DNA of 55,694 nt, taken from contig WFYI01000025.1 of NCBI GenBank assembly GCA_015490155.1, positions 1 through 55,694 of the forward strand. The letters run 5' to 3'. How positions within the stretch are numbered: the first letter of the stretch is position 1; each line of letters starts with the position of its first letter. The DNA comes from Aquificaceae bacterium. Its GTDB lineage: Bacteria; Aquificota; Aquificia; Aquificales; Aquificaceae. Below are positions 41,967 to 46,410 of the stretch, in pieces. Below the pieces are notes generated by a model, which saw nothing but the letters and a program-made list of their open reading frames with translations, was not told the DNA's origin and did no database searches. The translations under genes were made by a program, and so were the position numbers.

Positions 41967-43139
41967 ATGGGTATAAGCACTCCAACCGTCGGAGAAATAC
42001 AGTACGAGTTTTCCAAAAAGGTATTCACGGAGCTTCTGAACAACAAGCCCAAGTTCGTAGATTACCTAAATACAGAAAAAACTCCCCTTCTGTTGATGGA
42101 TACCGAAGGCGTAAAGAGTAGGTATGTGCAAATAAAGTACCACATGCCTGATGTAGAAGTTTACTACGCCGTAAAGGCAAACGACCACCCGCAGGTGATA
42201 AAAGTTCTCGTAGAGGTTGGAGCGGGCTTTGAAGTTGCATCCGTAAGGGAGCTGCAGGAGGTTCTCTCCGCGGGAGCAAGCCCGGAAAGGATTATATCGA
42301 GTAACCCAGTAAAACCTCCTGAGTTCATAGACTTTGCCTACTCAAGTGGTGTACAAAGGTTCGCAGTGGATAGCTTCAGCGAGATTGACAAAATTCAGAG
42401 AATAGCTCCCCGTGCAAGGATTTACGTAAGAATTACCGTTCCGAACGAAGGTAGCGATTGGCCCCTCTCGAGGAAGTTCGGCACCGACCCGGATACAGCC
42501 TTGGAAATACTTGACTACAGCAGGAGAAAGGGGCTCATCCCAATAGGTATAACCTTCCACGTAGGTTCTCAATGTAACAACCTGAGAAACTGGTTCATAG
42601 CAATAAAAAGGGCTTCACTTCTGTGGAACAAAGCTAAGGACAGAGGTATAAGGTTGCTTACCCTTAACATGGGAGGTGGGATACCGGTCAGGTATTCTTA
42701 CGAATCCGTAAAGATAGAGGATATAGCGTATTACGTTAAAGGACTGCTCAGGAAGTACTTTCCCGTTCCTCCCTACGAGCTTCAGATAGAACCGGGCAGA
42801 GGTATAGTTGGTGACCAAGGCTTGATGATAACCAAGGTCATAGGTAAAGCTGAAAGGGGAAACGAAAAGTGGCTCTATATAGATACAGGTGTGTTTAACG
42901 GACTTGCAGAAGCCATAGGAGGCATAAGGTATCCCTTCTATTTAGAATCTAAGGGGGAGCTGAAAGAGTGGACGATAGGCGGAGTGTCCTGTGACAGTAT
43001 GGATGTGGTGGCGAGGAACGTGTTTTTACCGGAACCCGAGGTGGGACAACTCCTTTACATTCCCTCAGCAGGAGCTTATACCACCGTCTACGCCTCAGAG
43101 TTTAACGGGTTCCCGAAGCCGCGTGTTATATGCTTGTAA
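41967..43139 (+). CDS. Fold-type III PLP-dependent ornithine/diaminopimelate-type decarboxylase
   Basis: A 390-aa alanine-racemase-fold decarboxylase. The PLP lysine is in EVYYAVKANDHPQV, the phosphate/His motif is GITFHVGSQC, GGGIPVRY and EPGRGIVGD bind the cofactor phosphate, and the cross-subunit cysteine motif is VSCDSMDVV, with GAYTTVYASEFNG near the end. CDSMDV and the length are closer to eukaryote-type ornithine (or ornithine/lysine) decarboxylases than to LysA, whose motif is CESGD. It would then make putrescine or cadaverine for the polyamines of a thermophile. TATATT is six bases before the ATG. The 3' end overlaps the convergent pseudo-PilT gene by 14 bases. Confidence 0.82.
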   Translation: MGISTPTVGEIQYEFSKKVFTELLNNKPKFVDYLNTEKTPLLLMDTEGVKSRYVQIKYHMPDVEVYYAVKANDHPQVIKVLVEVGAGFEVASVRELQEVLSAGASPERIISSNPVKPPEFIDFAYSSGVQRFAVDSFSEIDKIQRIAPRARIYVRITVPNEGSDWPLSRKFGTDPDTALEILDYSRRKGLIPIGITFHVGSQCNNLRNWFIAIKRASLLWNKAKDRGIRLLTLNMGGGIPVRYSYESVKIEDIAYYVKGLLRKYFPVPPYELQIEPGRGIVGDQGLMITKVIGKAERGNEKWLYIDTGVFNGLAEAIGGIRYPFYLESKGELKEWTIGGVSCDSMDVVARNVFLPEPEVGQLLYIPSAGAYTTVYASEFNGFPKPRVICL

Positions 43140-43986
43140 GGGAGAACCTTACCCTGTTGTTCTCAAGCTCTGTTAATTCAATTACCTTCGTTACAAAAGA
43201 CTTGTATATATCTGCAGAGTCCCCGAGGAGTATGTCTATGGATGTACTCAAAGCCTTTGCATCTGGGAGAGTTTGACTCACTATCAGCGTAAATGGGAAG
43301 GGCATCAGCTTAACCACCGAGGTCATCATCTCCCTATCCTTAAAGGCTATGTCGCTGACGTAAACGATATCCGGGTCGAGCAAAAGTGCCTCCTCTATAC
43401 CCTGATGGAAAGTATCCACATCTATGTTTAACTCCCTCTGAACTACTACGGAGTTATTGTGGTTCAAAAGATAGGTTATAGGTCTTTCGAGTATGTATAT
43501 GAACTCTTGTTTCAACAGAGAAAGTCTTTTGAGAAGGGAAAAGGCAAAGGTGTTATGTAGCATAAAGTTCTCACCAACTATGTATATGACCTTCCCCTTA
43601 GCATTCTCTACGAGGTTTATAAGCCCACTTATACTCTCCGCGTCGTTATCGGTTATAGCGGTTATTTCCGGTATTTCAAAGGGGACGTTCACCACGCTAA
43701 ACATATAACTTCCCCTCTGTGTAACGTACCCTACCCTGATTCTCCCTATCTCCTCCAGCCCGAAGGAGAAAAACCCTTCCCGCTCTAAGGGACCCCTAAA
43801 GGTCTTTGACCTTTCCCTGAGAGAGTTCAGTGTTTCCCTTGTATCCGCAGGCGTTAAGGGTACATCGGCCAAAGGTACGAGTTTGTCCTTTAGCCTTTCC
43901 ATAGGCGGTTTGTTGGGCGCAAATAAAAGCTCGGTAAACCCCTTCTTTCGCCTGAACAGGTCAAGTATTATCGGTACATAATTCAT
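43126..43986 (-). CDS. PilT-like protein without Walker A (probable pseudo-ATPase)
   Basis: A 286-aa relative of the type IV pilus retraction ATPase PilT. The N-terminal part (RGPLEREGFFSFGLEEIGRI) fits the PilT N-domain, and the Asp-box-like phrase LERPITYLLNHNNSVVVQRE at 166-185 is plainly related to PilT's EDPIEYVHKHKKSIVNQRE. Walker B-like LLLDPDIVYVSD follows near 202-212. But where PilT has GPTGSGKST, this protein has GENFMLHNT at 138-146: Gly-Lys-Ser/Thr is missing, so it should not bind ATP in the normal way. It may regulate pilus motors as a subunit or platform. The start has TATAAT 13 bases upstream, divergent from mrp. Confidence 0.75.
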   Translation of the reverse strand: MNYVPIILDLFRRKKGFTELLFAPNKPPMERLKDKLVPLADVPLTPADTRETLNSLRERSKTFRGPLEREGFFSFGLEEIGRIRVGYVTQRGSYMFSVVNVPFEIPEITAITDNDAESISGLINLVENAKGKVIYIVGENFMLHNTFAFSLLKRLSLLKQEFIYILERPITYLLNHNNSVVVQRELNIDVDTFHQGIEEALLLDPDIVYVSDIAFKDREMMTSVVKLMPFPFTLIVSQTLPDAKALSTSIDILLGDSADIYKSFVTKVIELTELENNRVRFSLTSI

Positions 43987-44068: not shown

Positions 44069-44084
44069 TTTTCTTTTTAAGGTG

Positions 44085-44092
44085 AAAGGAGG
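44085..44092 (+). promoter_or_regulatory. Strong ribosome binding site for mrp
   Basis: AAAGGAGG lies seven bases before the ATG at 44100. A GTG at 44082 is upstream of this motif and is rejected as the start. Confidence 0.85.
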
Positions 44093-44099
44093 CTCGCAG

Positions 44100-45164
44100 A
44101 TGGCTGTTAAGGACATAATGGATGCTCTCAAGGCGGAATCCCTTGAAGATTTGGGTATTCAAGCAAACTTAGCTCAGCTGGTAAAGGACATAAAGTTGGT
44201 AGGCAAAGAACTGAGCGTAGTGGTAGGTGTAGACAGGCCGGAGTTGCAGAGTGCGGTTCGTGATAGGCTTCAGAAAGCCCTGCTGAAGTCCGGTGAAGTT
44301 GATAAGGTGAATGTGAAGTTCACCACTGCTCCTCCACCGAAGGAGCATACGCATGCTCCTCAGCAGGCTCCGATGGGACAACCGGCTTTCACCAAGCGGG
44401 GAGTTCCGGGTGTAAGGAACATAATTTTGGTGGGGAGTGGTAAAGGAGGCGTTGGTAAGTCCACAGTTTCAGCTAACCTCGCCCTATCGTTGGCGAAGCT
44501 CGGCTTTAAGGTCGGTCTTCTTGACGCTGATATATACGGGCCCAGCATACCCACTCTCTTCGGTATAAAGGGTGAAAGGGTGGAAGTTAACGAGCAGAAC
44601 AAGATAATCCCCAAGGAAAAGTTCGGAATAAAGGTTCTTTCCATAGGACTCATGCTCCCCTCGGAGGATACGCCGGTTATATGGCGGGGTCCCATGCTGA
44701 TGAAGGCTCTTACCCAATTCATGTTTGACGTTGAATGGGGAGAGCTTGATTACCTAATACTTGACCTGCCTCCCGGAACGGGAGACGTCCAGCTGACACT
44801 CGCACAGAACGTAAAGATAGACGGAGCGATAGTGGTAACCACACCTCAAGATGTGGCACTTGCGGACGTCAGAAAGGCTACCTCCATGTTCAAAGAGGTG
44901 GACATACCCATAGTCGGCGTTGTTGAGAACATGGCTTACTTCGTATGCCCGGAGAGCCAGAAAAAGTACTACATATTCGGTAAAGGTAAAACGGCTGTAT
45001 TCGCAACCACGTACGGGCTAAGGGTTCTTGGTTCAATTCCGATTGACCCGGAGGTGGCCGAGAAATCCGACGAAGGAGACCCCATAGTGGTAAGCGAGCC
45101 TGATTCAGAAACTGCAAGGGTATTTACAGCTATAGCTAAGGTTGTAGCGGAGGAAGTCCATTGA
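44100..45164 (+). CDS. Mrp/ApbC (NBP35-type) iron-sulfur cluster carrier ATPase, CxxC changed to CxxS
   Basis: A 354-aa P-loop protein. Residues 1-78 resemble the MIP18/DUF59 domain, then a Pro/His-rich linker, then the deviant Walker A GSGKGGVGKSTVS at 111-123, DADIYGPSIPTLFG and LILDLPPGTGDVQLT, all standard for Mrp. Mrp proteins bind a [4Fe-4S] cluster between two subunits through a CxxC motif and pass it to apo-proteins. Here that motif reads FVCPESQKKYYIFG: Cys283 is kept but the second cysteine is Ser286. A normal cluster bridge is thus doubtful. The gene is 28 bases before a cysteine-desulfurase-like gene that also lacks a key residue. Confidence 0.9.
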   Translation: MAVKDIMDALKAESLEDLGIQANLAQLVKDIKLVGKELSVVVGVDRPELQSAVRDRLQKALLKSGEVDKVNVKFTTAPPPKEHTHAPQQAPMGQPAFTKRGVPGVRNIILVGSGKGGVGKSTVSANLALSLAKLGFKVGLLDADIYGPSIPTLFGIKGERVEVNEQNKIIPKEKFGIKVLSIGLMLPSEDTPVIWRGPMLMKALTQFMFDVEWGELDYLILDLPPGTGDVQLTLAQNVKIDGAIVVTTPQDVALADVRKATSMFKEVDIPIVGVVENMAYFVCPESQKKYYIFGKGKTAVFATTYGLRVLGSIPIDPEVAEKSDEGDPIVVSEPDSETARVFTAIAKVVAEEVH

Positions 45165-45192: not shown

Positions 45193-46410
45193 ATGTTTGC
45201 AAAAAAGATAGGTAAAAGGGTAGTTTACTTAGACCACATAGCCACCACGCCGGTGGCGGAGGAAGTCCTTGAGAAGATGATGCCCTACTTCAGGGAGTAC
45301 TTTGGTAATCCTACATCCTTGCACAGCTTTGGACAGGAAGCTAAAAAGGGAGTGACCGAAGCGAGGGAGAAGATAGCCGAGCTTATAAACGCAAATGTTC
45401 CGGAGGAAATAGTATTCACCTCGGGTGGTATAGAGGCGAACAACCTCGCTATAAAGGGAATTTCAAGCGCTTACAAAAGGAGAGGTCAACACATAGTAAC
45501 TACAGATATAGAACACCACTCCATACTCCACCCGTGTAAATCTCTTGAACGCAAAGGTTGGGAAGTAACTTACCTCAAGCCCGATAAACACGGTCTCATA
45601 GACCCGGAGCAGGTCAGGGAAGCCGTCAGAAAAGATACGGTTTTGGTCTCTATTGGACACTCCAACAGAGAGATAGGAACAGTCCAGAACATAAAGGAGC
45701 TGGTTCAAGCGGCTAAGGATAAGAACCCCAAGGTCGTTTTCCACACGGATGCGGCACCGTCTCTTGGACACTATCCCGTTGACCTGAAAGAATGGGGCGT
45801 TGATGCGGCCTCATTTACAGCTCACCTTATGTACGGACCCAAGGGTGTGGGTGCGCTATGGACGAGGAAGGGGGTTAAGGTAAGACCCCTTATAGAGGGC
45901 GGTACTCAAGAGAGAGGCGTGAGAGCAGGAACCGAGAACGTTCCCGCGATAGTGGGTTTCGGAGCGGCAGCTGAGCTTGCCATGAAGGAGTTAGACGACA
46001 GGATTAACAGGCTTTCCTCTTACAGAGACCGTCTTAGGAAAGGGCTTGAAGAAAAGCTCCAATATATAGAATTTACGGGACACCCTACCCAGAGACTTCC
46101 GCATCACCTATCTCTCATAGTTCACTTCGTAGAAGGAGAGGCTATGCTCCTAAGACTTGATTTAATGGGAATAGAAACCGCATCGGGTTCTGCGTGCGTA
46201 TCCCTTGCCCTCAAACAGTCTCACGTTCTATTTGCAGTGGGAGTTCCCAAGGAAGTTTCAAACGGCTCTCTCGTTTTCAGCTTCGGCAGAGAGAACACAG
46301 ATGAGGATGTGGATTACATACTTGAGGAGTTCCCGAAAACTATCAACTGGCTCAGGGAGGTGTCTCCCTTTAATCCCGAAAACTGGGAGAACTACGTTAA
46401 GTCAAAATAA
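45193..46410 (+). CDS. NifS/IscS-like cysteine desulfurase homologue lacking the PLP lysine
   Basis: A 405-aa class V aminotransferase-fold protein. It aligns with IscS/NifS throughout: YFGNPTSLHSFGQEAK, IVFTSGGIEANNLAIKG, the PLP-stacking His in TDIEHHSIL, and the catalytic loop cysteine Cys335 in ASGSACVSLALKQSHVL. But the internal-aldimine lysine (SAHK in IscS) is Leu212 in FTAHLMYGPKG, and the Gln that touches the PLP oxygen (DAAQ) is Pro189 in TDAAPS. LDHIATTP replaces LDNAATTP. With no Schiff-base lysine it should not release sulfur from cysteine in the usual way; a sulfur-carrier, scaffold or altered enzyme role is possible. GGAGG precedes the ATG. It follows mrp. Confidence 0.85.
   Translation: MFAKKIGKRVVYLDHIATTPVAEEVLEKMMPYFREYFGNPTSLHSFGQEAKKGVTEAREKIAELINANVPEEIVFTSGGIEANNLAIKGISSAYKRRGQHIVTTDIEHHSILHPCKSLERKGWEVTYLKPDKHGLIDPEQVREAVRKDTVLVSIGHSNREIGTVQNIKELVQAAKDKNPKVVFHTDAAPSLGHYPVDLKEWGVDAASFTAHLMYGPKGVGALWTRKGVKVRPLIEGGTQERGVRAGTENVPAIVGFGAAAELAMKELDDRINRLSSYRDRLRKGLEEKLQYIEFTGHPTQRLPHHLSLIVHFVEGEAMLLRLDLMGIETASGSACVSLALKQSHVLFAVGVPKEVSNGSLVFSFGRENTDEDVDYILEEFPKTINWLREVSPFNPENWENYVKSK

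Follow-up and report, generated by a model that had tools for sequence, protein, structure and literature searches.

Cysteine desulfurase is treated as the sulfur entry point for ISC-type Fe-S assembly, tRNA thiolation, and cofactors. A. fulgidus IscS is inactive as a desulfurase because Asp replaces its lysine (PMC7585200), and Cys321 of this protein ligates the [2Fe-2S] cluster in its complex with IscU (PMC9769115; PMC7585200). IscS1 of M. acetivorans is also without the lysine, and other IscS copies occur in the same genome (PMC7585200). In E. coli, TusA and IscU occupy adjacent, overlapping sites on IscS (PMC11302665), and sulfide can supply IscU in the absence of IscS (PMC13015791). DsrE and TusA are sulfur-trafficking proteins, which transfer thiosulfate in sulfur oxidizers (PMC4175335).

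We analyzed a lysine-less IscS-fold protein, referred to as IscS*, which is encoded in a stretch of 55,694 nucleotides (the window, taken at its full length) from an Aquificaceae genome of 1.59 Mb with a completeness of 96.5%.

Rebuilt PLP pocket of IscS*

The residues of IscS* were mapped by aligning the window protein with E. coli IscS from the K-12 record (Table 1), and the roles of the E. coli pocket residues were assumed from general knowledge of IscS. The preliminary description had placed a leucine at the site of the Schiff-base lysine and a proline at that of the PLP-contacting glutamine, with the active-site cysteine and the stacking histidine retained, and the alignment agreed with all of these assignments. 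It had named two changed cofactor residues, which stood, and had missed three more (I80, R159, and V361); at least five cofactor or catalytic residues of IscS* thus differ from those of E. coli IscS. D180 and T243 are also kept (D186 and T247), and the conserved Lys217 is still present. In the TusA-binding arginine patch of E. coli IscS, R220 and R225 correspond to K226 and K229, so that the charge is the same and the residues are not.

Table 1. Positions of IscS*, its diagnostic codons, and adjacent genes in the window.
Feature	Position	Strand	Remarks
286-aa protein	43126-43986	-	No Pfam match over cut-off; weakly like T2SSE/PilT ATPase (E 0.09)
Mrp/ApbC-type Fe-S carrier P-loop NTPase	44082-45164	+	28 bases upstream of IscS*; GTG start as listed
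IscS* (lysine-less IscS-fold protein)	45193-46410	+	ATG start, 405 aa
Codon 80, ATA (Ile)	45430-45432	+	Phosphate-binding Thr76 site of E. coli IscS
Codon 108, CAC (His)	45514-45516	+	Ring-stacking His, E. coli H104; kept
Codon 159, AGA (Arg)	45667-45669	+	E. coli IscS Asn155 site
Codon 189, CCG (Pro)	45757-45759	+	Within DAAP; PLP-contacting Gln site, E. coli Q183
Codon 212, CTT (Leu)	45826-45828	+	Within FTAHLMYGPKG; Schiff-base Lys site, E. coli K206
Codon 335, TGC (Cys)	46195-46197	+	Persulfide Cys, E. coli C328; mobile loop
Codon 361, GTT (Val)	46273-46275	+	Substrate-carboxylate Arg354 site of E. coli IscS

IscS* matched PF00266 (class-V fold type I scaffold) with 279 bits and passed the cut-off of the NCBIfam model NF002806, "IscS subfamily cysteine desulfurase" (318 bits, cut-off 304), and it missed the equivalog cut-offs of TIGR02006 for IscS (393 of 643) and TIGR03402 for NifS (482 of 531). 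The AlphaFold model reached a mean pLDDT of 93.1 with a diverse alignment, which was used instead of an alignment of near-identical rows that gave only 69.6. The sole weak inner stretch of the model was residues 334–338 (pLDDT <50), the loop of Cys335; low confidence would be expected here, as this loop is mobile in IscS-type proteins. The model lay within 1.0–1.2 Å of A. fulgidus IscS and 1.6–1.9 Å of E. coli and human IscS/NFS1, with structure-match Z scores of approximately 54–55 against the A. fulgidus and E. coli proteins.

The replacement residues are fixed in the family. Leu212, Arg159, Ile80, Ile16, and Cys335 were invariant in all 52 Aquificaceae copies, position 189 was Pro in 51 copies and Ala in one, and Val361 was found in the 51 copies readable there, one cut-off copy being unreadable at this position. 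Arg159, Ile80, Val361, and Cys335 were also invariant in 20 copies from Hydrogenothermaceae, each of which carries Tyr at position 212; across Aquificales, Arg159, Ile80, and Cys335 were present in 72/72 copies and Val361 in the 71 readable ones. The preliminary description held that a lysine at position 212 in orthologues of the same genus would refute its reading, and the single same-genus genome contained a 92% identical copy with Leu212. The comparison of this copy with the window gene (pN 0.056, pS 0.674) indicated strong purifying selection. A sequencing error, against which the preliminary description had already argued, or a decaying pseudogene is a practically negligible explanation, as the five replacements are fixed among the 52 Aquificaceae copies, the same residues are common to more than 50 independent assemblies and the PDB sequence of the A. 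aeolicus protein, and the gene is under strong purifying selection. Replacement residues that are so fixed point to a new function rather than to decay.

The A. aeolicus orthologue was identified in a PDB sequence search, which retrieved seven entries named "cysteine desulfurase" (9wfy, 9wfe, 9wfb, 9wf8, 9wew, 9wer, and 9wep), known here by their sequences and molecule names alone. The sequence of 9wfy is identical to that of the orthologue read from the A. aeolicus genome (G002), which is 88% identical to the window protein and has the same I80, R159, P189, L212, V361, and Cys335. The others form a series of variants, in which 9wfe carries R159N and L212K, 9wfb adds V361R, 9wf8 adds P189Q, 9wew adds I80T, 9wer adds I16A, and 9wep adds G155M. 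As these entries put canonical residues back into the A. aeolicus protein, it is already being studied by others. No paper on entries 9wep–9wfy was found in a literature search, and they seem recent, as they were not among the Foldseek matches in a PDB structure copy to 8 April 2026.

IscS* may still be a PLP enzyme that binds PLP non-covalently or through another lysine and has residual desulfurase activity or a new reaction. His108, Asp186, Thr247, and Lys217 would be available for this, and PLP is named in a published figure legend for the structure of A. fulgidus IscS despite the missing lysine (PMC9769115). However, the equivalents of the phosphate-side Thr, Gln183, Asn155, and the substrate Arg are gone too, and the PDB series from 9wfe to 9wep restores exactly those residues stepwise, which suggests that the wild type is without the function; we consider a retained PLP enzyme highly improbable. 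With five residues of the catalytic site or cofactor pocket replaced, all of them fixed in the family, the loss of PLP chemistry that the preliminary description had proposed for this desulfurase homologue is well supported. Judging from these residues, IscS* very probably no longer performs PLP-dependent cysteine desulfuration.

Desulfurases and scaffolds in Aquificaceae

The preliminary description raised the possibility of a second, canonical desulfurase gene elsewhere in the genome. A PF00266 search of the window's genome found no second IscS, NifS, or SufS; four other matches were rejected as canonical desulfurases from their sequences, being two aminotransferases of the DegT type, one of the alanine/serine-glyoxylate type, and one enzyme of the KBL/BioF type. 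Of the 64 Aquificaceae genomes, only G002, G010, G011, G013, G017, G021, G022, and G025 showed a NifS-type homologue with the lysine, G012 having an ambiguous fragment, and a lysine-bearing desulfurase was not found in 29 of the 32 genomes that were at least 97% complete.

The SUF system was rejected as an alternative route, as SufB/D (PF01458) gave no match in the window's genome or in any of the 64 Aquificaceae genomes, while all 14 control genomes were positive. IscU was present in 60 of the 64 genomes and TusA in all of them, and IscU was the only scaffold type found in the window's genome. Because the lysine-less IscS* is the only protein of this type in the window's genome and in most relatives, another sulfur source for Fe-S clusters is suggested.

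In a Hydrogenobaculum-like genome (G035, 99% complete), neither a lysine-less nor a canonical desulfurase was found and IscU was present, reflecting an assembly gap or a real loss. In H. thermophilus G030, Thermocrinis-like G052, G029, and G037 (loci L069–L072), a second class-V homologue without the lysine was observed, which is very divergent, reads GPSLLGPQG where the lysine would be, and has the conserved motif SSPC/STPC. Another Hydrogenobaculum-like genome (G032, locus L056) encodes, beside the main copy, a third lysine-less IscS-like protein (AGHYFYAPHYSG) with the Cys kept.

Spread and gene neighborhoods of lysine-less homologues

Searching 84,980 species genomes for lysine motifs in which the lysine codon does not begin with A gave at least 119 stretches, and all 119 stretches listed were IscS homologues. 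Among the matches listed, the lysine site was occupied by Leu or Tyr in Aquificota, mostly Gln and in some cases Glu in Nitrospirota, Leu in Rokubacteria and Leptospirillum, Leu or Ala in Chloroflexota, Arg in Hydrothermarchaeota and Verrucomicrobia, and His, Leu, or Arg in Asgard archaea, and the Cys335 equivalent was retained in almost all of them. Each of 20 genomes that encode a lysine-less copy in other phyla contained one or more further homologues, mostly lysine-bearing; Aquificaceae stand out against these, as most of their genomes are without a lysine-bearing homologue.

In a quick tree of 87 rows with the trait columns removed and A. fulgidus IscS left out, the forms from Aquificota, Nitrospirota, Deferribacterota, Hydrothermarchaeota, and Verrucomicrobiota fell on one side of the tree, separated from the lysine-bearing enzymes, and further lysine-less groups sat inside the canonical side. 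At least four label changes were needed, of which well supported branches force two, and a single origin of all lysine-less forms was thus rejected on this tree, whose midpoint root is arbitrary and from which the direction of change cannot be read. The forms of Rokubacteria/Leptospirillum and of Chloroflexota/Asgard archaea look separate from the Aquificota/Nitrospirota clade.

In Rokubacteria and Leptospirillum (L077, L081, L128, L078, L096, and others), the lysine is replaced by Leu and the substrate Arg is kept, in keeping with a separate lysine loss; these genes lie in isc-type operons with Rrf2 and IscU, followed in L077 by DnaJ- and Hsp70-like genes. In one Leptospirillum genome (G146, locus L250), the only other homologue found is also without the lysine (SSGRMGGPPG), and this genome may have no canonical desulfurase.

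In Aquificales, Mrp was encoded directly upstream of IscS* in 26 of 27 Aquificaceae loci and 20 of 20 Hydrogenothermaceae loci; in the window, an in-frame ATG at 44100 fits the Mrp orthologues better than the listed start. The tusA and iscU genes of the window's genome lie together in an operon on contig C63, separate from IscS*. This operon encodes, in order, IscU, a ThiI-like protein of the PP-loop type, TusA (C63:7227-7481), a DUF1858-like protein, and a protein of the NifU C-terminal type (Nfu), and the same gene order was found in A. aeolicus. In Hydrogenothermaceae, IscU was downstream of IscS* in 14 of 20 loci, followed by the ThiI-like gene and TusA, the latter being present in six of ten long loci.

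The DUF1858-like protein (L202:7478-7723, contig C63) is small, is encoded between the genes for TusA and Nfu, and is conserved in Aquificales operons. The 286-aa protein of the window shows no Walker A motif by eye and is perhaps a degenerate pilus-type ATPase; related ORFs adjoin mrp in several Aquificaceae loci.

Neighbors were counted on the same strand within 2.5 kb, and the scan pattern that gathered the lysine-less copies was blind to neighboring genes. For Nitrospirota-type IscS*, TusA was encoded upstream in 35 of 38 loci, in many cases with a 4-base overlap at the start of IscS*, with IscU downstream in 34 and Rrf2 upstream in 31. Eight Chloroflexota-type loci contained TusA, accompanied by DsrE2 in all eight and by downstream IscU in seven. 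The gene order in Hydrothermarchaeota was IscS*, TusA, lysine-bearing IscS, and IscU. Lysine-bearing control loci, a small set (n = 20) that was not lineage-matched, contained TusA on the same strand in 0/20, IscU in 3/20, and Rrf2 in 1/20. The difference for TusA (35/38 vs 0/20) gave a Fisher p of 1e-12, calculated over related rows; the better argument is therefore that four lineages, one with a separate lysine loss, share the company of TusA and IscU. The Hydrothermarchaeota order was observed as a tandem operon in L088 and L137, the IscU-like protein of L137 looking divergent.

In Aquificaceae and Hydrogenothermaceae, iscU and tusA flank a ThiI/PP-loop-like gene, which would fit a sulfur distributor for tRNA or cofactor thiolation, in which IscS* passes sulfur between TusA and a ThiI-like protein and does not serve Fe-S clusters. 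However, the Nitrospirota operons consist of Rrf2, TusA, IscS*, and IscU, the ThiI-like gene was found among the loci scanned in Hydrogenothermaceae only, and the upstream Mrp points to Fe-S work, so that a thiolation distributor appears improbable. IscS* probably works with IscU in Fe-S assembly, and the chances that it is loaded by TusA appear evenly balanced.

Sulfur supply to IscU and comparison with known systems

We propose that IscS* is a PLP-free sulfur relay, in which Cys335 is loaded by TusA and not by cysteine and IscU receives the sulfur, although we hold this reading as a whole at slightly below an even chance. TusA would carry sulfane sulfur from inorganic sulfur metabolism and persulfidate Cys335, the IscS* dimer would present Cys335-SSH to IscU via the loop, as normal IscS does, and reduction would then build the cluster on IscU. 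The transfer from TusA to IscS* would run opposite to the first step in E. coli, in which TusA is known to receive its sulfur from IscS. As the TusA and IscU sites in E. coli are adjacent and overlapping by the IscS Cys, the geometry for a hand-over from TusA to IscU exists. Because IscS* in Aquificaceae adjoins mrp and not iscU or tusA, the link to TusA is carried over from relatives. In most genomes outside Aquificaceae that have a lysine-less copy, a lysine-bearing one is kept too, and the lysine-less copy could be accessory there. Two further points against the relay are the genome G035, in which neither form was found, and the changed arginines of the TusA-binding patch. Of the functions offered in the preliminary description, the persulfide carrier is favored by the retained mobile loop of Cys335 and the TusA/IscU operons, and a regulator or a new enzyme gained no support.

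Aquificaceae inhabit sulfidic hot springs and vents, and this habitat would also suit a structural partner of the A. fulgidus type, in which Cys335 is a temporary cluster ligand or IscU platform, free sulfide is the sulfur source, and no persulfide is carried. The inactive A. fulgidus IscS, whose Cys321 ligates the cluster with IscU (PMC9769115, PMC7585200), has the same double loss of the lysine and the substrate Arg. H2S rescues E. coli without iscS but not without iscU (PMC13015791), and the feeding of E. coli IscU by sulfide implies that a persulfide relay may be unnecessary; the desulfurase-free SMS system also runs on sulfide (PMC12192291). However, a structural partner leaves unexplained the TusA linkage in four lineages, including the Chloroflexota-type with its separate lysine loss. 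Sequence alone cannot separate the persulfide relay from the ligand or platform, and the TusA linkage tips the balance to the relay; we consider the structural partner, the closest rival, rather unlikely.

Extended to the family, the persulfide relay would mean that most Aquificaceae make Fe-S clusters without cysteine desulfurase, passing inorganic sulfur through TusA and PLP-free IscS to IscU, and that this rewiring, which turns the IscS–TusA direction around, had more than one origin among bacteria and archaea, a generalization that we offer as tentative and doubtful. The recurrence of TusA beside lysine-less IscS suggests that sulfane sulfur reaches Fe-S clusters by a general route. In a thermophile family with IscU, mostly without a lysine-bearing desulfurase, and with no SUF, the sulfur source is directly testable, and the proteins form a heat-stable, tractable set for this question, one of them already crystallized. 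As NF002806 still names the protein a cysteine desulfurase, pathway reconstructions are probably wrong at the desulfurase step.

A. fulgidus IscS (4eb5, 4hvk; D199K mutant 4r5f) shares with the window protein the IscS fold, the absence of both the Schiff-base Lys and the substrate Arg, and the retained Cys, and all these features of its kind are present in the window protein. Its partner is IscU, and it is approximately 44% identical and within 1.0–1.2 Å of the IscS* model. It differs in having Asp instead of Leu/Tyr at the lysine site (motif SSND vs TAHL), and because it keeps the equivalents of Asn155 and Thr76, its pocket is less rebuilt than that of IscS*. Active paralogues accompany IscS1 in M. 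acetivorans but are missing from the window's genome. E. coli IscS shares with IscS* the fold, the mobile Cys loop, and the partner families TusA and IscU, but it is active as a PLP-dependent desulfurase and passes sulfur to TusA, while the proposed flow is from TusA to IscS*. The novelty is lower than the preliminary description had it, as a lysine-less IscS had been studied before in A. fulgidus and the PDB already contains the A. aeolicus orthologue. What appears to be new here is the breadth of the lysine-less forms, the lack of desulfurase and SUF in most Aquificaceae, and the repeated linkage of these proteins to TusA and IscU.
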